A stretch of DNA of 47,198 nucleotides from a virus: the IMG/VR virus record IMGVR_UViG_3300037155_000033, positions 1-47,198 of that record, one strand, 5' to 3'. Of the stretch, positions 3,219-40,289 are shown in pieces. The position numbers and the translations under genes were made by a program. A model generated the notes under the pieces. It was not told the origin of the DNA, searched no databases, and was given only the letters and a program-made list of their open reading frames with translations. Within the stretch, counting starts at the first letter, position 1. Each line of letters starts with the position of its first letter.

Positions 3219-3428
3219 CTACCAAAGTTTTAATGGTTTCTTAAATAATTGATAATCTTTGCCAAGTTGTTCGTGATAGGCGATTTCTTCACTCTTTGGC
3301 ATTATCGACCCGATTGTTTTGTTTGCGTGCATTATTTCATCATTCAACCTCATATTTTCTTGGATATAGAAACTATAAGGCATTAGGGGAATCGGATATA
3401 CTTCATTTAATGATTTTGTTTGTTTCAT
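3219..3428 (-). CDS. Hypothetical protein (69 aa)
   Basis: A small soluble protein with no recognised motif. Its start overlaps the stop of the 73-aa gene upstream by ATGA, so it is very likely translated in the same operon. Confidence 0.5.
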   Translation of the reverse strand: MKQTKSLNEVYPIPLMPYSFYIQENMRLNDEIMHANKTIGSIMPKSEEIAYHEQLGKDYQLFKKPLKLW

Positions 3429-12923: not shown

Positions 12924-12953
12924 ATTATATTCTAAAGCATTGTATAATGTCAA
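12924..12953 (-). promoter_or_regulatory. Consensus early leftward promoter
   Basis: TTGACA (12948-12953), 18-nt spacer and TATAAT (12924-12929), both perfect, followed 7 nt later by ATG. The -35 lies in the palindrome GTCAATTGAC (12949-12958), which also offers TTGACT to a rightward promoter, so the two directions may compete. Confidence 0.8.
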
Positions 12954-13010
12954 TTGACTTGCATATTCTATTGTGTTGTATTGTATTTTAATATATTGTA
13001 GTAAAAAAAT

Positions 13011-13287
13011 TTGCAGACCTATGCAAAAAGAGGTGTGCTAGTGTTTTGGGCTTATGGTATATGGGTAAAAAGTGTGTTTGCATACCTTTTGAAAAACATC
13101 AAAAGACTTTGCCAACCCCATAGCATACGGTGTGTGTAGCATACGGTGGCGTACCTATATATATAATATATATATTATTTATAAGGATATAGGTATGCAA
13201 GGTATGTGAAAAAGCTGTGCAATACCCATTATATTTGGCTTGAAAAAAATTTGCATACTTCGCTAGTATACCTTTTGTTGCATACCT
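13011..13287. other. Iteron cluster and AT-rich block, candidate replication origin
   Basis: Sites of the form TTGCATACCT occur at 13011-13020 (one mismatch), 13078-13087, 13251-13260 (one mismatch) and 13278-13287, with an inverted copy at 13191-13200. Two GCATACGG half-repeats lie at 13123-13130 and 13139-13146. Between them lies a 30-bp stretch of almost pure A and T (13155-13184) bounded by ACCTATAT and ATATAGGT. No credible gene exists here. Repeated sites beside a meltable block are the usual form of a replication origin, though a repressor operator array is an alternative. Confidence 0.55.
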
Positions 13288-13323
13288 ATGGTGTGCAAGT
13301 GAAATTTTATATAATCCTCCCCG

Positions 13324-13425
13324 ATTATGGACTAGATTCTCCCCGACTTATATGCTTGCGAAGCAAGCGAACGCCGGACTTTGCCAATTTTCGCCCGCCA
13401 CTTCTGGTGCGTAGCACTCCATAAT
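13324..13425. other. Structured non-coding segment in the divergent hub
   Basis: ATTATGGA (13324-13331) pairs with TCCATAAT (13418-13425), enclosing the hairpins GCTTGC/GCAAGC (13354-13368) and GTGC/GCAC (13407-13417). CTCCCCGA occurs twice just before (13317 and 13340 region). The segment is GC-richer than its surroundings. It may be a small RNA, a leader, or part of the origin. Confidence 0.35.
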
Positions 13426-13469
13426 TGTATTCACTTCAACCTTCTCCCCCTTTCCTTTCCATAATACGC

Positions 13470-13497
13470 TTGACATACTTCAACATAGTAATATAAT
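13470..13497 (+). promoter_or_regulatory. Main rightward promoter
   Basis: TTGACA (13470-13475), 16-nt spacer, TATAAT (13492-13497), both perfect. It is followed by about 200 nt of AT-rich leader containing further TATAAT strings and no convincing gene before 13704. It would transcribe the packaging and head genes. Confidence 0.75.
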
Positions 13498-14190: not shown

Positions 14191-14343
14191 ATGCCAATCT
14201 ACACCGACTCAAAAGGAAATCAAAAGGACACGAGTACAATGGTTATAGAATATTTACAGCGCGCTCTCGCTAAAGCTAAACAAAACAACGATCAAGAAAA
14301 TATCGATGCTCTTGAGTGGGAAATAAATAAACGTCAAAGCTAA
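14191..14343 (+). CDS. Small protein between terminase genes (50 aa)
   Basis: A short protein with a short N-terminal strand (PIYTDSKGNQ) and a helical hairpin (YLQRALAKAKQNNDQENIDALEWEI). It overlaps the large-terminase ATG by one base (TAATG). Genes of this size and shape occur beside terminase genes in other phages, but the role is unknown. Confidence 0.6.
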   Translation: MPIYTDSKGNQKDTSTMVIEYLQRALAKAKQNNDQENIDALEWEINKRQS

Positions 14344-15752
14344 TGCCAACTAACGAAAAAAAAGTTTCCTTCAAGGATTTAATCCACTTCACTCCTAAAC
14401 AAGTGGAAGCTACTACTGTAGCGGACGCGCATAAATATACTCTCTTCGGTGGTTCCGCTGGTCCTGGAAAAAGCTACTGGCTCCGTTGGTATATGGTCCG
14501 CACTTTAATTAAATGGGGACAACAGTATAACCTCACAGGGATCCGCGCGGCTATGTTCTGCGAGGATTATCCTACATTAAAGGATAGACAGATAAGCAAG
14601 ATGGAGGTTGAGTTTCCCCAATGGTTAGGACAGATAAAGGACACCAAGACGGATGGTTTAGCTTTTTATATTGCCAAAGAATATGGAGGGCATGTCCTTA
14701 TGCTTAGGAATCTTGATGATCCGTCTAAGTATCTTTCTTCGGAATTCGCTATGATAGGCATTGAGGAAATGACCCAGAATGAGGAAATGAAATTCCATAG
14801 ATTACGTTCTCGTTTGCGATGGACGGGAATACCGGAACCAAAACTTGTCGCTGCAACTAACCCGGGCGGTATAGGACACGAGTGGGTAAAGAAGTATTTT
14901 GTGGATAGGGATTTCCCGGATCATGAGAAGGAAGCGGAGAAGTTTGCTTATGTCCCGGCGCTTCCTACGGATAATCCATACTTGGCGGCTAGTTATATCC
15001 TTACCCTTCAATCACTCCCGGAAAAACTCAGGCAAGCTTATTTAGAGGGACGATGGGATATATTCGAAGGAATGTTCTTCACGGAATGGGACCCAAAGGT
15101 GCATATTGTGGAACCATTCGAAGTGCCGGATACATGGCCTAGAGCTAGGTCTATTGATCCTTCTGGTCGTTCCGGAACTACGGCCTGTTATATTTATGCT
15201 TTAGCAGACGATGGAACGGTTTATGTAACACATGAGTGGTTTAAAAGTGGATTAGATACGGACGAACATGCCCGTGGTATTTGTAAAATGTCCGAGGGAC
15301 TAAACATAAAGTACACGGTTATCGATAGTGCGGCGTTCTCAAAATTGGGTATGCCAGAGTCTCAGGCGGAGATTTTTGAGCGTTATGGCGTAACGGACTT
15401 GATTGCGGCGGATAAACATAGGATTCCCGGGTGGAATGTGATGCACACTTACCTTCGTCCTGATCCAGCAACGGGACAACCTAGGTTGAAAATATTCAGT
15501 AATTGTATAGGTTTAATCAAGGGAATACCTCGCGCGCAACACCCGCCTTTGGATAGTGATAAGGACCCCCAGGATGTTATGTCCTTTTGGGACGGAGCTG
15601 ATCATGGTGATTCTATTGATTCTTGTAGATATTTTTTACAGACTGTCCGTGAACAAGTGGCTGTTAAACCGATGGGGCGGATGGAAAAAATAATGTCGGA
15701 TTTAAAAAGACAAAAGGAAGGGAATTTTGATTTTAATTATCACAATAGATAG
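14343..15752 (+). CDS. terL: Terminase large subunit
   Basis: A 469-residue packaging motor. The N-terminal ATPase has Walker A GGSAGPGKS (about 36-44), the adenine-side segment FCEDYPTLKD, Walker B-like MIGIEEM and the coupling motif VAATNPGG. The C-terminal RNase H-like nuclease shows acidic sites in SIDPSGRSG, YTVIDSAAF and DGADHGDSID. It cuts concatemers and drives DNA into the prohead. Full length for the family. Its stop is followed at once by a DnaA box and a promoter for the portal gene. Confidence 0.93.
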   Translation: MPTNEKKVSFKDLIHFTPKQVEATTVADAHKYTLFGGSAGPGKSYWLRWYMVRTLIKWGQQYNLTGIRAAMFCEDYPTLKDRQISKMEVEFPQWLGQIKDTKTDGLAFYIAKEYGGHVLMLRNLDDPSKYLSSEFAMIGIEEMTQNEEMKFHRLRSRLRWTGIPEPKLVAATNPGGIGHEWVKKYFVDRDFPDHEKEAEKFAYVPALPTDNPYLAASYILTLQSLPEKLRQAYLEGRWDIFEGMFFTEWDPKVHIVEPFEVPDTWPRARSIDPSGRSGTTACYIYALADDGTVYVTHEWFKSGLDTDEHARGICKMSEGLNIKYTVIDSAAFSKLGMPESQAEIFERYGVTDLIAADKHRIPGWNVMHTYLRPDPATGQPRLKIFSNCIGLIKGIPRAQHPPLDSDKDPQDVMSFWDGADHGDSIDSCRYFLQTVREQVAVKPMGRMEKIMSDLKRQKEGNFDFNYHNR

Positions 15753-15829: not shown

Positions 15830-18223
15830 ATGATAGACATAAAAACTTTAGAAGAGAAACCAAAAGAAGTAACTTTTACCCCCGATACGGAAGAAAAGAT
15901 TTTACAGACTTTTATAAAACAACGTGTTGACGAATTACAGAAGCATCGTAAGGAATTAAAAATTGAAGACAAATGGAAAGAAGCGGATAGGGAATATGTT
16001 CCTCGGGAGATGGAATTTTCTTCTCAAGGAAAAAGATTCGAGACGGATCAGACAGATGGTTATAGAACAAGACTTGTTCCTATTGGCGATAATACTCAGA
16101 ACTGGAGAAGTTCTAATAGTGCGCCAACTCTTTTACAAAAAATTCAGACAGCAATATCTTTGATTATTGATAATAATCCCGAAGCGGTTTTTACGGCGCT
16201 TCAAAAAAAATATGAATCAACATCTGATTTGGCTAATAGTCTTTGGAAGCGTAATTGGCAAATTACTGGCGGAAAGGAGGTTCTCAAACTCTTCGTTTTT
16301 AATCTTGTAAAATATGGAACGGCTTTTGCTCGAAGTTATCCAAGGGTAGTGAAATATAATAAAGAAGTTTTAACGGAATACGATTCGGAACATCCGGAGA
16401 AAAATAAATACGAAAGTAAAGAAGTGGTTTGGTTTAATGATGTGGCTAAACAAAATCTTGATCCTTATCGCACATGGATTGATGAACAGACAAGACCTTA
16501 TGATACTTATTCTATGAATGATTGTTATTATGAATTGGATTTTGCTTATGATGCGGCGGAGATTGAATTTGGACAATATAAAAACTGGCAGTATGTAAAA
16601 AAAGATTCAAAGAGTATTCCGAATGACGATATAAAAGATAAAGACAACGATAAGCAAATCAGAAAGGATATTGTTACTATCGGGTTCTACGAAAATCGCC
16701 TTAAAGACTTATACGTTTGTAAGGCCGTTAAGGATGACATAATACTCCACTCATGCCCTCTGCCAAATGATGACGGGTTGCTCTCGCTTTGGTATGGCAT
16801 GTGGGTATTACGCTCGGCGGATAGACCGGATGGAATTTCTCTATGGGAAATTATTTGTCAGGACAAACACATGTATGATAAATGGAATAATATGGGAAGC
16901 GATCAACTTACATTAAGTATCATGAAGTTCGGTTATTATACGGGAACACAGGCCCTTACTGGCGATGGAAGAATGGATATTGTCCCTGGAATGGCTAAGC
17001 AGATTACTAATGGTAAAATTGATTGGATGGAAATTCCTGGACCAGGAAAAGATTGGATTGGTGGATTGGAAAAATTACAGAAAGATATGGAAGATAGTTC
17101 TGGTATTACACCTACAATGGAAGGAGCAGTGACAGGTAAAACTCTTGGAGAAATACAAATGGCGCGTGAAAGTTCTTTGAAAAGATTAAGAATACCTTTG
17201 GAAAATATCGCATGGGCGATTGAACAAGATGCTTATCTTACCCTTTCTTGGATGTCACAGATTTATTCTACGCCGGAGGTGAAACAATTTGCGAACGAGA
17301 GAGAGATGATTCTTTATGAACAGCAAAATGATGTGCAGCATGATCAAAAAGAATATCAGGAGACAGACCCAGATACTCTATTAAAAACCGATCCCCTAAC
17401 TGGTCAGCCAATCGGCGGGACAGATGATTTTTCTTCTGCGGAAAATGTAGTCATGGATCCGACTACTAACCCTCCTTCAGTTCCGGGAGCAAAAGATAAA
17501 AAAATTACGGCGACATATTTACCAAAACTTGCTCTACATTTAGAAGATAGAAACGGGCAATTATTTGAATCAAAGGAATCACGATATTTCCAAGTTGGAA
17601 AAGATATTCAGGTGACTTCTATGAAATGGCGAGGAATGATTAAGGTTATTCCAAAATCTCTGGTTGGAAACTCGGAAATAATATTAAAACAGACAAAACA
17701 AGAAATGATTAATCTTCTTTCTCCTATGTTTGCCGGAAGTCCACTTACTCATAAGAAACTTGCAGTTGAACTTCTTAAAGTTAATGAAGAAGATCCTCTT
17801 GATTGGTTGCCAGATATGCCCGGATGGAATGATGAACCTTATCAGATTATCCCTCCACAACCTGTACCACCTTCTGTAAGATTTACTATTCCTTGGGCTG
17901 ATTTGGTGTCTGATCCTGATATGAAGATTGAAATGGCTAAGAAAATTGGTATTACTCTTCCTCCGCCACCTGTTACTCCTCCTCCATTATTTATTCCTAG
18001 AGGTGGGACTGAAGTAGGAACTGGAACTGAAGATTCATCTGGAACTGGAACACCGCCAGCGCCAGCGCCAACACATGGAACGGGTGGTGGACCTGCGCAA
18101 CCAGGGACTGGAAATAATAATGCGGTAGCACCTACTTTAATACCTAGGGCAAATATCAGTCGCCCATTTCCTCAAGGTAAATCATCGGTTGGAGGATCAG
18201 GGCAGTTATTTATAAAGCATTAA
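15830..18223 (+). CDS. Portal protein
   Basis: A 797-residue portal of the P22/podovirus type. Residues 1-600 form the ring body, with the crown/stem region recognised by DSSGITPTMEG followed by TGKTLGEIQMARESS, a typical portal phrase. The last 80 residues are Pro/Gly/Thr-rich and low-complexity (TPPPLFIPRGG, GTGTEDSSGTGTPPAP), longer than in most relatives. It forms the dodecameric DNA gate and docks the terminase and adaptor. Confidence 0.88.
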   Translation: MIDIKTLEEKPKEVTFTPDTEEKILQTFIKQRVDELQKHRKELKIEDKWKEADREYVPREMEFSSQGKRFETDQTDGYRTRLVPIGDNTQNWRSSNSAPTLLQKIQTAISLIIDNNPEAVFTALQKKYESTSDLANSLWKRNWQITGGKEVLKLFVFNLVKYGTAFARSYPRVVKYNKEVLTEYDSEHPEKNKYESKEVVWFNDVAKQNLDPYRTWIDEQTRPYDTYSMNDCYYELDFAYDAAEIEFGQYKNWQYVKKDSKSIPNDDIKDKDNDKQIRKDIVTIGFYENRLKDLYVCKAVKDDIILHSCPLPNDDGLLSLWYGMWVLRSADRPDGISLWEIICQDKHMYDKWNNMGSDQLTLSIMKFGYYTGTQALTGDGRMDIVPGMAKQITNGKIDWMEIPGPGKDWIGGLEKLQKDMEDSSGITPTMEGAVTGKTLGEIQMARESSLKRLRIPLENIAWAIEQDAYLTLSWMSQIYSTPEVKQFANEREMILYEQQNDVQHDQKEYQETDPDTLLKTDPLTGQPIGGTDDFSSAENVVMDPTTNPPSVPGAKDKKITATYLPKLALHLEDRNGQLFESKESRYFQVGKDIQVTSMKWRGMIKVIPKSLVGNSEIILKQTKQEMINLLSPMFAGSPLTHKKLAVELLKVNEEDPLDWLPDMPGWNDEPYQIIPPQPVPPSVRFTIPWADLVSDPDMKIEMAKKIGITLPPPPVTPPPLFIPRGGTEVGTGTEDSSGTGTPPAPAPTHGTGGGPAQPGTGNNNAVAPTLIPRANISRPFPQGKSSVGGSGQLFIKH

Positions 18224-21836: not shown

Positions 21837-22141
21837 ATGAGCGCACCAATGAACATAGCTCAAGCCGCAGATACAGTTGATCTAAGCATCCAAAAGATGT
21901 GGATCAAATCATCTGACCCTGAGCCATTATACAAAAAGTATTTTAATTACAGGACAACGGAAGACCTTTATGAAAAGGATTCTTCTATCACAGGTCTCGG
22001 CGTTGCAGATTTCACAGCAGAAAATGCCGTGATTGTTGCAGACGTTCCTGTGCAGGGCTATAAGAAAACCTACACTCAAAACCAAGTAGGTTTGATTACA
22101 ACCTATACGGCTATGATGTTACCTTTTTCGGCATCACTTAT
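21837..22141 (+). CDS. Major capsid protein, exon 1
   Basis: It encodes residues 1-101 and two bases of codon 102. Unspliced, the frame runs two codons into the intron and stops at 22148, giving a truncated 103-aa product. The sequence (AMNIAQAADTVDL-like start, ATYTQNQVG-like strand) matches the N-arm and start of an HK97-fold coat protein. The last bases ACTTAT pair with GTAAGT in the intron (P1) with a closing U-G pair, which places the 5' splice site after 22141. Joined to 23029-23746 it gives 340 residues. Confidence 0.85.
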
Positions 22142-22331
22142 GGCGTAAGTCATTTGAACAAACTTCGTAAATTCGGGGAACACCTCATAAATGAGACAAT
22201 CCCGAGCCAAGCCCGAAAGGGAAGGTGTAGAGACTAGAGACGAGGCTCCTCAGAAAGAGGATGATAGGATAGTCCGAACTCTATGGCGACATAGAGAATA
22301 TAATCGAAAGGTTATATCGTTCGTTGAAAAT

Positions 22332-22359
22332 TTGACACTGTGGAAGTTTGGTATATAAT
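22332..22359 (+). promoter_or_regulatory. Intron-internal promoter of the HNH gene
   Basis: TTGACA (22332-22337), 16-nt spacer, TATAAT (22354-22359), both perfect, then 6 nt to the ATG at 22366. The endonuclease can therefore be made from a leaderless mRNA, independently of capsid transcription. Confidence 0.75.
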
Positions 22360-22365
22360 AGATAT

Positions 22366-23019
22366 ATGTCAAAAATTTTACAGGTTCCATCTGAATATAG
22401 AACTTACAAGTGGTTATATCAAAAGTATATAATTGAAAAACTACCTTCACAGAAAATTGCAGATATTGTTGGAGCAGACAGAAAGACAATAGACCAATGG
22501 CTCGCTAAAGTTAAAATCTTTAAAAGAGGATTTGGAGGAAGTTTAGGAAAGCCTACAAAAGAATGGCTCATTAATGAATATATAGAGAATAAAAAATCTC
22601 TTAATGATATAGCAAAAATAGTTAATCAAGATAGAAAAACAGTACATCGTTGGTTAGCATACTATAAAATAAAATCTCACAAAGTTGGAGAAACTAGAAT
22701 GGGTAAAGATAATCAATTTTGGAGAGAAGGTAAACACATATATACGAGTAAGAGTAGGGGGTATAGGTATATTTATAAACCTGGACATCCTATGGCTCGT
22801 AAAAGTGGATATGTACCAGAACATAGATTTATAGTATCAGAATTACTTGGGAGAAATTTAGAAAGGAATGAAGAAGTACATCATATAAATTTTAATGAAG
22901 GAGATAATAGATTAGAAAATTTATATTTATTTTCAAGCAAATCAGATCATATGTTGTATCATAGAAAACTTGCGAGAAAAGAAGTTGGATTCTTAAAGTC
23001 AAATTTAATCGAAAAGTAA
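22366..23019 (+). CDS. Intron-encoded HNH homing endonuclease
   Basis: 217 residues. The N-terminal half holds two HTH-like repeats (SQKIADIVGADRKTIDQW and LNDIAKIVNQDRKTVHRW, about 28-45 and 79-96), likely target-binding. The C-terminal HNH domain has EHRFIVSELLGR, the paired HH at 172-173, N181 in GDNRLENL and the final H195/H199. HNH enzymes of this kind nick or cut the intronless capsid gene and let the intron spread. The stop lies 9 nt before the predicted 3' splice site. Confidence 0.9.
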   Translation: MSKILQVPSEYRTYKWLYQKYIIEKLPSQKIADIVGADRKTIDQWLAKVKIFKRGFGGSLGKPTKEWLINEYIENKKSLNDIAKIVNQDRKTVHRWLAYYKIKSHKVGETRMGKDNQFWREGKHIYTSKSRGYRYIYKPGHPMARKSGYVPEHRFIVSELLGRNLERNEEVHHINFNEGDNRLENLYLFSSKSDHMLYHRKLARKEVGFLKSNLIEK

Positions 23020-23028
23020 CATTAATGG

Positions 23029-23746
23029 GAAATTTGGTATCAAAAAGAGAGACTTGCAAAATATTGTTGACGAGTTACGAACGTCTATCGCTCGTATGCG
23101 CGAACAACTTTGTGCTGAGAGGCTCGATAACTGTACAGCAGTTTCATATACACACACAGGTCCTAGTGGAAATACCACTATCGCTACTGTTGGTGGAGAT
23201 GGATTGCAATGGTTGACATCCGCACATACGCGTGAGGATGGTGGCACAAATATGAATAATGGTGTCTATGATGGCACTACTTATAATCTTCCTTTTGATT
23301 ATGCTGGTATGAAAGCCGCTTATCGAACAGCGAGTTTGTTTGTAGATGGTCGTGGAAATCCACGTCCGGCTAATCTAGATACACTTGTTTGTAAATTAGG
23401 TTCAGCTGTCCATTTGAAAGCTAAGGAAATTAAAAGAGCTATTGCGAATAACAAAATTCCAGAGTCCTTCGATAATGATGGTTCTGGTGTTGAGGATTTC
23501 ACAATTATTGCTCTTCCTTATCTCCAGAATGGTTCACAATGGTACATGTTTGATTCAACTCGAGCACTGACCGACAAAGAAGGATTCCAATTTGTTGAGG
23601 CACAACCTACAACTTTGGCTCCTCAAAACATTGTTTTCAAGACTGATGAAATTCAGTACAAGGCTACTGCAATTTTTGATCTCGGATTTAACGATGTAAC
23701 ACGTTCTTGGGTTGGTTCTCTTGGTACGAGTGCAGTATTAGCTTAA
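23029..23746 (+). CDS. Major capsid protein, exon 2
   Basis: Base 23029 completes codon 102 and 238 more residues follow, starting KFGIKKRDLQNIVDEL. This is the spine-helix region and A/P domains of an HK97-fold coat protein; the C-terminus ends in an ATAIFDLGFNDVTRSWVG strand and a small Ala-rich tail. A TTG start at 23054 could give a shorter frame if unspliced, but it would lack the N-arm. Together with exon 1 the protein is of normal podovirus coat length. Confidence 0.85.
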
Positions 23747-23759
23747 TAGTTTAATCGTG

Positions 23760-23811
23760 AGAGAAGGAGAATAGAATAAAGCAATTCGGCTGATAATCCA
23801 TACCCTTCTCT
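23760..23811 (+). promoter_or_regulatory. Long hairpin after the capsid gene
   Basis: AGAGAAGG (23760-23767) pairs with CCTTCTCT (23804-23811) around a 36-nt loop, between the capsid stop and the next ATG. No U-run follows, so termination is unlikely. It may cap the 3' end of processed capsid mRNA. Confidence 0.35.
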
Positions 23812-36248: not shown

Positions 36249-39200
36249 ATGTCATTCTGGGACACAATCAATCAAATAGGAAATGGACCGGTACCACATT
36301 TAAGTACTCCAACCAGTACTCCTGTTCCTAGTCCTTATGTAACTCCAGCACCATTAGGTCCAGTTCCACATATAACTACAACACCTGCACCTGCCACTAA
36401 ACCAGCAGTTTCTTCTTCTAATTTTTGGGATACGATAAATAAAACTACTCCAGCGCCTTTGGGACCGGTGCCACATATAACACCTACTGTACCATCTGCA
36501 ACTCCACCTCCTCAATGGAAAGATACTCTTAATCCTAACAATCCTATTTATGGTCCATTAAAAGATTTAATTCAAGGTCCATCTTTAGGATTGAGTAAAT
36601 TTGTTATTCAACCAGCATATAATTTTGCTTCTTCTGCAACCGAATTAGCTACAGGAAATCCATTACCAAAATTAAATATTCCATCACTTTTTCCAGAAAC
36701 AGGTACTACAAATTTTATAGATGGAAGCAGTTATCAGCAGAAATACGTTGATAATATAACTGCAGCAATAAATGCCAAATATAAAGCTCAAGGATGGGCA
36801 AATATGACTCCTGGCAATGATCCAGAAATAAATTCGGTAATTGCACAAGCGAAACAAATAGTATCAAAAACTGATGACCAAATAATGAAAGATGCCTATA
36901 AACAAACTTTTCTCGGTGGTCTTATGGATGCTATTTCATTAGCTGAACCTATAAAAGGAGGTATAGGTTTTGGAATTAAAAAATTAGCTCCACAAATTTT
37001 GATGGATTCTTCTGTTAATTCTATTTCAAAAGACACTCTTTATGACCTTTTTTCTGGAAGAAAAACTGCTGGACAATTAGGAATTACTCCTGAAATGCAG
37101 GCAAAAATTACCTCAAAATTAGCATCATTAGATACTCAAGGTAAAGCGCAGTTCCTCCAAGGTTTTGATTTATTAAATGCTAAACCATCTTTTATAGGTA
37201 AAATGTTTGGTGTTACAGATGCGCAAGCAAAAGCAATGTTAGACGCTTATGGTGGACAAGTTCGTGAAACTCCTAGTGGCGCACTTCCCGGATATAAAAT
37301 GAATTATCAAGCTGGAGGCGTAAATATAAAAGGTGAACCTGTTGGATTTGGAAAAGAACCCGTCCCCAACGAAACTCCCGCCGAAGCCCTCGCCCGAAGT
37401 GAAGCGTATGCGAAACAGGCGCATCCGACAACAATAGTTCCTGAATCCACATTTTCAACAGATATTCAAGGAAATCAAGTGGAACAGCAATTTATTAGGT
37501 CAGCAACTCAATTAGAAAAAACAAGTCCAACGGCTAAAAGTAAAGGATTCCAATCTATTCCTGATAAAGAAGGATTTCAAAAAGTATTTAAACCTTATGG
37601 AGAACAAGGAGCCGGATATTATTACAATAAAGTGCTTCCTACTCCCGATCAACTTCAATCGCAAATAGATTTAACTAAAGAACTCCTTGCCGAGCATCCG
37701 GGGACTGCTTTAAATAAACTTATACCGGATAAAATAGCAAAAACTAATTACTTAGATAAAGTAAAAGGTGATAATTTAACTTACCAACAGAGAAAAAGTA
37801 ATGCCGCGAAAGATAAAAGATTACAAAAACTTCAAGATATTTTACCTAGTACAGAAAAAGAATCTTCTTCTTTTGATAACTACGATGTAATAGAACAAAA
37901 AAAAGGAGAAGCAAAAGCTTTAAAAGAAAGATTAAAGGCATTACAAGAACAGAAAAAAAACTTACCTAAAGTGAGTCTTAAATCCGACATCCGCACCGGC
38001 AAACCAATAAGACTTACCGCAACCGAGCAAGCGATGGTGGGGACGGGGAAGAGGAGTGTGCCGTTTATGCCTAAAGCAAGTCAACCGCCAGTACCAACCC
38101 CTTCCCCAATAGATACAACAACAGGAGAGGGGAGATCAATAGAAATACAAGGACACCAAGTATCAGAAGAAGCTTCTCAACACACAATTCCACCAAAGGA
38201 TGTTTCATTGATTGATACTATATCAAAAGAAGTGACAAATGTCAAAGATAAAGTAAATATCATTGACTATATTCGTACCCCAGATCGGGTGTTGAAAAAA
38301 ATTGGCCTTGAAAAAGAAGGACAATTTCTACGTACTCAATATGATAAATACTTAAAAGAACTTCCTAAAAATATAGAAAAAATAACAGCATGGTCTAAGC
38401 GTGCTTCTAAGGGAGGTAACGCTGATATATTTAATTATCTTGATGGTAAAGCGATAGACTTAAAACCTCAGGATAAAGTTATTGCTACAGAAATAAAAGC
38501 ATGGTTAAAACAATGGGCTGATAGATTAGGACTTCCAAATGACGATAGAATTACTTATTATATTACTCACATTTTTGATCAAGAATTAATTAAAAAAGAA
38601 TTTCCTGAGGAATTAGCGAAACTTATAGATAACAAACTTCCCAGTGAAGTATATGACCCATTCTTACAAAAACGATTGGGTACTTTAGGTTACCGACAAG
38701 ATACATGGAAAGCTCTTGATGCTTATGTTAAACGTGCAACTCGTAAAGTTAATCTTGATCCGGCTCTTGAGAAAATAAAGGATGCTTCTGGTAAGTTGGA
38801 AAAGTCTCAATATGACTATGCAAAACATTACGTTGCTAATATAAATATGCGTCCAAGTAAAATTGATACGCTTATTGATAACACTTTAAAACAAGTTATC
38901 GGTTATCGTTTAGGACAACGACCACTTTTGACTATTACAAAATTTTTGCGTGATATAACATATAGAGCAATGCTTGGATTAAATCCAGCCTCAGCTCTTA
39001 AAAATATATCACAGGGGATAAATGCTTATGCCATTTTGGGAGAAAAATACACTACAATTGGTTATATTAAATTATTTAATAAAGGAGCGCATGAAGAACT
39101 TTTAAGAGAAGGAGTTTTAAATGGAGGTTTTATTGAAGATCGTGCGTTATCTGCCACCAGTAAAGCAATAGAAACATTTGATAAAGTGTTGTTTTCCTTT

Positions 39201-40289
39201 TTCCAAGGAGCAGAACATATTAACCGTGGAATGACATATTTTGGAGCAAAAACACAATTTTTAGATGGAAAAGCGGCAAAAAGTGATATAAAAGATGCTT
39301 TAGGTTTTAATGATATTAATGGAGAAGGAGTTAATTTTCTTACTGAAAAAAATGCAATAGATTATGCTAAATTTATAGTTCGTAAAACCCAATTCGTATT
39401 CGGTAAAATAGATACACCACTTATTTTATCTTCTGACCTTGGAAAAACTTTATTACAATTTCAATCTTTTACTACTAAACAAGTAGAATTTTTAACTGAG
39501 ATGGCTAAAAAGGCGGCAACTGGAGATGAAAAAGCTAAAAATTTGTTTGGTTTATTACGTTATGCTATTGCGGGAACTATTTTCGTTTATACAGTTGGTC
39601 AAGCGTTTAATATGAAAATGCAGGATCTTCTTCCATTCTGGAGGTTTGGAGTTCCACCATCGTTAAATGTTCCTTATCAAATAGGAAGTGCCACTTTTAA
39701 TGCACCTAACCAATATAATCAACCAAGAACTATTCCACAAAAATTAAAAGATATAGGTAATTCTTTATGGGGAATAGTACCAGCTGGTACACAATTAAAA
39801 AAAACTTTTGAAGGTTATAATGCTCTTAAACAAGGTAAATCCACTGATTCTGCTGGTCGGGTTCAATATGATGTCGGCGGTACCCCACTAAAAAATGCTC
39901 AAGCATTGATTTTTGGCAAATACGCCGGGCAAGGAGCGCAGGATTACTATAATGCCGGAATGACTTATGCCGAGTCAACATTAGCTAACCTGAAAAAATT
40001 ACCCAAAGAAGAGGCAAAAGCAAAATTTGTAAAAATGGCAACAGATAATCCAGCGCTTTATAAATCAGTATTAGAAGTTGCTAAAAAACAGGCGCTCGGG
40101 GTTACTAAAGATGATGAAAAACTTCTAAATCTTGGTGTTGCTAACAAAGCAAGGGCAAAAGAGGTTGCAAAACAATTGAATAAGTTGGATAATAAAGAAG
40201 CAAAGAAAGCACTTTTTGTTGAATACTATACAAAAAAGATATTAACACCAGAAGTCGTCAAACAATTAGCAGAATTTTTAAAGAAATAA
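36249..40289 (+). CDS. Giant internal virion protein (1346 aa)
   Basis: The largest gene. Residues 1-90 contain a duplicated unit ending in APLGPVPHIT (FWDTIN...), probably a flexible tether. The centre is helical with a coiled coil (KALKERLKALQEQKKN). The C-terminal 700 residues form a large helical domain with DRVLKKIGLEKEGQFLR, a YITHIF segment and AMLGLNPASALKNISQG, resembling large ejection proteins of podoviruses and N4-like phages. Ejection into the cell to form a conduit is inferred. GC content changes abruptly within it. Confidence 0.65.
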   Translation: MSFWDTINQIGNGPVPHLSTPTSTPVPSPYVTPAPLGPVPHITTTPAPATKPAVSSSNFWDTINKTTPAPLGPVPHITPTVPSATPPPQWKDTLNPNNPIYGPLKDLIQGPSLGLSKFVIQPAYNFASSATELATGNPLPKLNIPSLFPETGTTNFIDGSSYQQKYVDNITAAINAKYKAQGWANMTPGNDPEINSVIAQAKQIVSKTDDQIMKDAYKQTFLGGLMDAISLAEPIKGGIGFGIKKLAPQILMDSSVNSISKDTLYDLFSGRKTAGQLGITPEMQAKITSKLASLDTQGKAQFLQGFDLLNAKPSFIGKMFGVTDAQAKAMLDAYGGQVRETPSGALPGYKMNYQAGGVNIKGEPVGFGKEPVPNETPAEALARSEAYAKQAHPTTIVPESTFSTDIQGNQVEQQFIRSATQLEKTSPTAKSKGFQSIPDKEGFQKVFKPYGEQGAGYYYNKVLPTPDQLQSQIDLTKELLAEHPGTALNKLIPDKIAKTNYLDKVKGDNLTYQQRKSNAAKDKRLQKLQDILPSTEKESSSFDNYDVIEQKKGEAKALKERLKALQEQKKNLPKVSLKSDIRTGKPIRLTATEQAMVGTGKRSVPFMPKASQPPVPTPSPIDTTTGEGRSIEIQGHQVSEEASQHTIPPKDVSLIDTISKEVTNVKDKVNIIDYIRTPDRVLKKIGLEKEGQFLRTQYDKYLKELPKNIEKITAWSKRASKGGNADIFNYLDGKAIDLKPQDKVIATEIKAWLKQWADRLGLPNDDRITYYITHIFDQELIKKEFPEELAKLIDNKLPSEVYDPFLQKRLGTLGYRQDTWKALDAYVKRATRKVNLDPALEKIKDASGKLEKSQYDYAKHYVANINMRPSKIDTLIDNTLKQVIGYRLGQRPLLTITKFLRDITYRAMLGLNPASALKNISQGINAYAILGEKYTTIGYIKLFNKGAHEELLREGVLNGGFIEDRALSATSKAIETFDKVLFSFFQGAEHINRGMTYFGAKTQFLDGKAAKSDIKDALGFNDINGEGVNFLTEKNAIDYAKFIVRKTQFVFGKIDTPLILSSDLGKTLLQFQSFTTKQVEFLTEMAKKAATGDEKAKNLFGLLRYAIAGTIFVYTVGQAFNMKMQDLLPFWRFGVPPSLNVPYQIGSATFNAPNQYNQPRTIPQKLKDIGNSLWGIVPAGTQLKKTFEGYNALKQGKSTDSAGRVQYDVGGTPLKNAQALIFGKYAGQGAQDYYNAGMTYAESTLANLKKLPKEEAKAKFVKMATDNPALYKSVLEVAKKQALGVTKDDEKLLNLGVANKARAKEVAKQLNKLDNKEAKKALFVEYYTKKILTPEVVKQLAEFLKK

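Follow-up and report, generated by a model that had tools for sequence, protein, structure and literature searches.

The coat gene of this virus is split by an insertion that carries an endonuclease gene, which raises the question of what the insertion is, where it begins and ends, and how a gene inside it can be expressed. The window, by which we mean the whole stretch of DNA analysed (47,198 bases, the entire IMG/VR virus record), encodes a terminase (14343-15752), a P22-like portal (15830-18223) and, around 21.8-23.7 kb, the split coat gene. The answer that we favour, at a probability of roughly 0.7, is that a mobile group I intron resides in the capsid gene and that expression of its HNH endonuclease would be gated by a start-codon hairpin combined with autorepression through a copy of the homing site. 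The parts of the interrupted gene are as follows.

21837-22119, plus strand: exon 1 of the major capsid (coat) gene, ending ..ATG ATG T, homologous to the intronless genes of L001-L010
22120-23027, plus strand: group I intron of 908 nt with last base G23027, from the empty-site alignment, RF00028, P1/P10 and end rules, and covariation
23028-23746, plus strand: exon 2 of the coat gene, starting GG AAA TTT (GGAAATTT), with 93% identity to L001 over exon 2

L001, the closest of the intronless relatives, has a coat protein that is 91% identical. AlphaFold modelled that protein with limited confidence (pLDDT 57.7, pTM 0.63), but HK97-fold capsids fill the top of both Foldseek lists obtained with the model (best E 4.4e-7), a structural match that identifies the split gene as an HK97-fold major capsid gene. 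The gap 3' of the coat gene (23760-23811) contains a long-range inverted repeat, AGAGAAGG / CCTTCTCT, possibly a transcript structure or a terminator. Further along the window, a 1346-aa ORF (36249-40289) gives a weak, below-cut-off match to the NCBIfam tail-700 PLxRFG domain.

A first-pass annotation of this DNA had proposed that a group I intron interrupts the coat frame, and a covariance-model search agrees: Rfam Intron_gpI (RF00028) matches 22111-22296 with 52.2 bits (E 3.5e-12), above the gathering score of 50. A filtered Rfam search of the whole window did not report the intron, and a search of six loci did not report that of L048, though its core is near-identical to the window's; both were missed because of the search filters. 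The elements of the structure are listed below.

22114-22136, plus strand: P1, exon TGATGT (22114-22119) with IGS GCATCA (22131-22136), closed by a U.G pair (U22119.G22131)
22125-22129, plus strand: P10 partner TTTTC, pairing with exon 2 GGAAA (23028-23032)
22140-22153, plus strand: P2 hairpin ATGGC-GUAA-GTCAT, in which five of five pairs covary and 94.9% are paired
22163-22274, plus strand: catalytic core P3-P8, from covariation in an eight-intron alignment
22163-68/22240-45, plus strand: P3
22173-77/22201-05, plus strand: P4
22184-87/22192-95, plus strand: P5
22206-08/22224-26, plus strand: P6
22232-36/22270-74, plus strand: P7
22247-51/22257-61, plus strand: P8
22279-22296, plus strand: P9 hairpin, from the same alignment
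22298-22317, plus strand: P9.1-type hairpin ATATAATC-GAAA-GGTTATAT, from sequence and fold
22328-22336, plus strand: AAATTTGAC, 5' strand of the helix that closes the HNH loop, overlapping the -35 box of the endonuclease gene, from a duplex fold

Across P1-P9, double (both-side) changes occur in 28 of 48 pairs of the eight-intron alignment, a result reached by 0 of 500 shuffles, and 95.9% of the alignment cells pair, against 34-47% in slid controls. The core helices P3-P8 include the P7/P3 pseudoknot characteristic of group I introns, and the U.G pair that marks the 5' splice site within P1 and the terminal G23027 likewise conform to that class. The capsid gene therefore harbours a group I intron with a complete core, for which self-splicing is predicted. 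The partner of the closing helix, GTCAAATTT (22998-23006), lies within the last codons of the HNH gene, and a version of the strand is kept in L111, which has lost that gene; in the td intron of phage T4, too, the 3' end of the endonuclease gene contributes to the intron structure (PMC2988022). A scan of the viral contigs with an exact intron-core pattern returned none.

The ends of the intron could be placed by comparison with uninterrupted genes. At the junction, the relatives in the L001-L010 coat alignment read MM-W-(K/R)-FGIKK, and their empty site restores the reading frame; the intron splits the codon of the invariant Trp-95 as T|GG. The junction 22119/23028 is the only solution in which this tryptophan is restored, exon 1 ends in U and the intron ends in G. 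It predicts a spliced product of 333 aa with an intact TGG codon. P1 points to the same position, since its pairing covaries: in L135 the exon AGCGT faces the guide GCGCT, a compensated change, and a P1 with U.G is present in 14 of the 15 introns examined, at several coat sites. The exception is L075, where a scripted search gave U.A and a GGGT/GCCC pairing can be drawn by eye. Intronless relatives and P1 covariation thus converge on predicted boundaries at 22120-23027.

The earlier annotation had instead drawn an intron of 887 nt (22142-23028) with its terminal G at 23028, a P1 formed by ACTTAT and GTAAGT, no clear P10, and a junction 22141/23029 that would yield a coat protein of 340 aa. The frame does stay open across that junction, and the two strands are able to pair. 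The resulting protein, however, would read MM-LPFSASLM-KFGIKK, with seven extra residues that occur in no uninterrupted relative, and the bases of the proposed P1 are taken by the conserved, covarying P2, whereas P1 covariation backs 22119. The comparison with intronless relatives contradicts this junction, and we regard its use as almost certainly wrong; the last intron base is G23027, and GGAAA/TTTTC provides a P10. The same helix had served as an initial assignment of P2, with only 59% pairing, until the GUAA-capped hairpin took its place.

The insertion might also have ceased to splice, leaving the coat gene broken or yielding a 103-aa fragment. It is known here from DNA, and the frame of exon 1 would run to a stop at 22148. 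A decayed intron is nevertheless highly improbable, given that P1-P9, P10 and the terminal G are intact, both exons are open, and exon 2 has kept its 93% identity with L001. In L038, which carries an intron at the same site, the 3' end (3221-3232) reads ..GGTA|GGAAATTT and is one G short relative to the others, so that restoring the Trp codon would leave the intron without its terminal G; a sequencing error, an altered end or a broken gene are the alternatives for that contig.

A presumably spliceable intron with a gene in its peripheral loop returns us to the question of expression. The elements that bear on it are these.

22366-23019, plus strand: HNH homing endonuclease gene, 217 aa, with a tandem helix-turn-helix region and a C-terminal HNH
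22332-22359, plus strand: sigma-70-type promoter of the HNH gene, TTGACA (22332-37) and TATAAT (22354-59) with a 16-nt spacer
22339-22354, plus strand: candidate operator TGTGGAAGTTTGGTAT, matching the empty insertion site TGTGGAAATTTGGTAT at 15/16 positions and filling the promoter spacer
22338-22383, plus strand: predicted RNA hairpin burying the HNH start codon, its 5' arm being the operator copy

As the first-pass annotation had recognised, the intron contains an HNH gene: the protein matches Pfam HNH_3 above the cut-off (E 4.7e-7) and PHROG 7545 (E 2e-27), its helix-turn-helix matches fall just below the cut-off, and the HNH motif aligns across relatives. With the Pfam and PHROG profiles only an HNH domain was found in the window's endonuclease, and no GIY-YIG catalytic domain. 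A sequence search of the PDB returned nothing for the HNH protein, and single-protein scans gave one weak match each in the viral contigs and the genome contigs. Sequence comparison thus points to a predicted HNH homing endonuclease encoded inside the intron, and the patchy occupancy of one site among related contigs is consistent with cutting of intronless alleles.

The perfect TTGACA-16-TATAAT promoter within the intron, also correctly noted before, ends 6 nt before the ATG, which puts the predicted transcription start at or next to the start codon; we saw no Shine-Dalgarno sequence in front of it. Shuffling the 60 nt in front of the gene 20,000 times gave a 12/12 promoter in 5 cases, with the reservation that the sigma-70 consensus may not be that of the host. 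The -35 box coincides with the strand needed for the P9-type helix, and its conservation is therefore no proof of promoter use. The only two other perfect TTGACA/TATAAT promoters in the window lie at 12953 (minus strand, 18-nt spacer) and 13470 (plus strand, 16-nt spacer); facing apart between two gene blocks (12926-13497), they are likely the main divergent promoters.

The spacer of the HNH promoter duplicates, at 15 of 16 positions, the site into which the intron itself is inserted. When the empty site is compared with the 60 nt upstream of the ATG, its best match is equalled in 2 of 20,000 dinucleotide shuffles (1 of 6000 in a second shuffle series), whereas random 40-mers of the window, 19,570 in all, never reach it. 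The copy is mostly of the exon-2 side, and the exon-1 side diverges. Each of the seven HNH-bearing introns found at site 95, those of the window, L048, L174, L145, L135, L117 and L148, has a mimic of the insertion site at the equivalent position. Against their own sites, the mimics match at 13/13 (L048), 15/16 (L174), 10/10 (L145), 10/11 (L135 and L117) and 10/12 (L148) positions. The match is individually strong in the window, L048 (2/6000 shuffles) and L174 (1/6000 and 1/20000); the shuffle values for L145 and L135 are about 0.015-0.02, and those of L117 and L148 are weak taken alone.

Conservation adds to the individual matches. In an alignment of six site-95 introns on the motif, a 13-nt operator is 76% pairwise identical, against 31-48% around it, and forms the best conserved block upstream of the HNH gene, above the -35 and -10 regions; the HNH proteins of these introns are only 37-58% identical to that of the window. 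Two introns at other positions also carry copies of their own sites rather than of site 95, at 16/18 in L075 (4/6000) and 15/17 in the second L174 intron, L174b (9/6000). One of about 70 unrelated cross-comparisons (the L148b upstream region, from the second L148 intron, against the L174b site) scored near 20, which makes these two cases only moderate on their own. In L111, a site-95 intron, the HNH gene is gone except for its last codons, and the operator is gone with it. The copy is absent in L038, L148b and L039; the site-95 intron of L038 has another endonuclease, placed in another loop.

Other candidates and ideas were discarded. The LAGLIDADG intron of L145 (L145b) was not significant as another operator case, and a pattern scan for operator plus TATAAT gave three matches, none in an HNH promoter context, which we judged to be chance. 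Exact tracking of its own allele by each operator found no support in the site-95 family, where the site of a relative often matches better; the operator would thus track the family of sites, not the individual allele.

Free-standing endonucleases probably enter introns that lie close to the sites they cut. The copy could accordingly be a relic of the entry of the endonuclease gene, a scrap of flanking exon 2 with no present regulatory role, an idea that such invasion and the predominance of exon-2 sequence in the copy would both fit. We consider this doubtful. The copy is better conserved than everything around it, across HNH genes down to 37% identity, it falls exactly between the -35 and -10 boxes in each case, L075 and L174b have comparable copies of other sites, and it was lost where the HNH gene was lost (L111).

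The same segment also forms the 5' arm of a hairpin with the HNH AUG inside its stem (-13.6 kcal/mol, z -4.0, 0 of 200 shuffles). Depending on the stretch folded, the AUG is unpaired with a probability of 0-0.09 in read-through RNA, against about 0.3-0.97 in RNA from the promoter, which lacks the 5' arm and is predicted to leave the AUG more accessible. Strong start-codon hairpins are also predicted in L148 (z -4.7) and in L148b (z -4.3). Conservation of the segment as RNA, in which case it would resemble the exon junction only by chance, would accommodate the stable hairpins of the window and L148; yet L048, L135 and L145 keep the segment with no strong hairpin in fold predictions, and an incidental likeness to the insertion site is itself improbable (2/20000 shuffles). 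This explanation is, in our estimate, quite unlikely.

We therefore return to the reading that the segment is a homing-site operator as well as a hairpin arm, for which phage T4 offers the precedent. In the td intron with I-TevI (and for I-TevII and I-TevIII), the endonuclease gene likewise lies in a peripheral loop with an internal promoter; the promoter of I-TevI is overlapped by a homing-site-like operator (15/20 nt), and a hairpin hides its translation start only in read-through RNA (PMC2988022). The I-TevI type of arrangement, a homing-site-like operator overlapping the endonuclease promoter, is present here at the level of sequence, and a hidden start is predicted in the window, L148 and L148b but not in L048, L135 or L145. 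Since both features match those described for I-TevI, we infer autorepression plus translational gating of the HNH gene. The present system differs from I-TevI in having an HNH with helix-turn-helix repeats and not a GIY-YIG enzyme (T4 I-TevIII is also HNH), a capsid host gene in an unrelated phage known from sequence alone, a sigma-70-like and not a T4 late promoter, and a transcript predicted to begin at the ATG or beside it, no Shine-Dalgarno sequence having been seen.

The cycle would then run as follows. The pre-mRNA would splice itself through P1 (exon UGAUGU on IGS GCAUCA) and G23027 to give the 333-aa coat protein, and the HNH endonuclease would spread the intron by homing, cutting intronless alleles at the same conserved site. 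On long late transcripts the HNH start codon would be locked in the hairpin, and splicing would be protected: with no translation from the capsid pre-mRNA, ribosomes would stay out of the folding intron. Freely translatable RNA would come only from the internal promoter, whose transcripts, starting at or next to the ATG, lack the 5' arm. As the spacer copies mostly the exon-2 half of the homing site, the HNH protein may bind its own promoter and repress itself; it is a guess that recognition downstream and cleavage upstream of the junction would allow binding without cutting. More generally, we lean towards the view that, among the intron HNH endonucleases of this phage group, the stretch between the -35 and -10 boxes has become a copy of the enzyme's homing site more than once, at different capsid sites and independently of T4. 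The protein would then sense its own level with its target-recognition surface, a trait that selection would have maintained over deep divergence.

In the literature searched, autorepression through a homing-site mimic has been demonstrated for a homing endonuclease only in the case of T4 I-TevI. The predicted homing-site operator in an HNH family, with its comparative support and recurrence at other sites, is new with respect to that literature, as is the number of intron positions, about eleven, in the capsid gene. The seven related HNH introns and the two elsewhere form a natural series for studying whether the operator changes in step with the target, and by what means a nuclease may bind one copy and cut the other. 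The first-pass annotation missed the insertion-site copy in the promoter spacer, the start codon in a hairpin and the coat gene as a recurrent intron target.

The last of these emerged from a scan of viral contigs with the coat alignment and its exon-2 part, which gave about 109 distinct contigs by our own count. Of these, 21 have an interrupted coat gene, as do the window and L174-L176, the latter found through the HNH alignment. The insertions fall at about eleven positions (L001 numbering, approximate).

Position 72/73: L045
Position 79: L103
Position 80/81: L039-L041
Position 95: window, L038, L048, L104, L111, L117, L135-L138, L145, L148/149, L174
Position 96: L170
Position 167: L150, L154
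Position 175: second intron of L145
Position 268: second intron of L148
Position 299: second intron of L174
Position 302: L075
Position 308: L064

A newly built group I model (R1) finds cores at nine of the coat positions with E about 0.005 or better; the intron of L039 and the second one of L148 were assigned by P1 and end rules. The endonucleases of the coat introns vary, comprising HNH_3 and other HNH types, one LAGLIDADG and one antisense HNH.

The first-pass annotation had called a capsid location with an autonomous promoter unusual, which is half right. A capsid-gene intron alone and an intron promoter are already known: capsid-gene introns are documented in LittleE, where RT-PCR and protein sequencing demonstrated one, and in Tuc2009, cited in the same report (PMC3706429), and in T4 a promoter within the intron is standard for I-TevI/II/III (PMC2988022). 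The LittleE intron, which is spliced in vivo, likewise sits in the major capsid gene, carries an endonuclease gene, and has a U before it and a G at its end; it differs in that its endonuclease is antisense and I-CreI-related (LAGLIDADG) and its intron type only inferred, and the cited part of that report describes no operator or hairpin (PMC3706429). Bastillevirinae and Twort-like phages similarly have several group I introns per gene, many with HNH, but almost only in DNA-metabolism and packaging genes, and the Bastillevirinae survey raises the question of what confines phage introns to genes of DNA metabolism (PMC11878797). With its roughly eleven positions, the structural gene described here is a clear exception to that view. 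Because standard Rfam scans missed the introns of the window and L048, introns of this type are probably undercounted.

Single capsid genes in L145, L148/L149 and L174 hold two introns with unrelated endonucleases, HNH_3 being paired with LAGLIDADG in L145 and with other HNH types in L148 and L174. In the intron at codons 80/81 of L039 (3088-4006) the HNH gene is antisense, an orientation shared with the endonuclease gene of LittleE. Outside the coat gene, Rhizobium phage RHph_N3_13 (L014, 2464-2673) contains a closely related group I core, which scores 70 bits with R1, within a gene for ribonucleotide reductase. The annotation shows this gene as two partial ones and labels the ORF between them a sigma-factor decoy (Srd).
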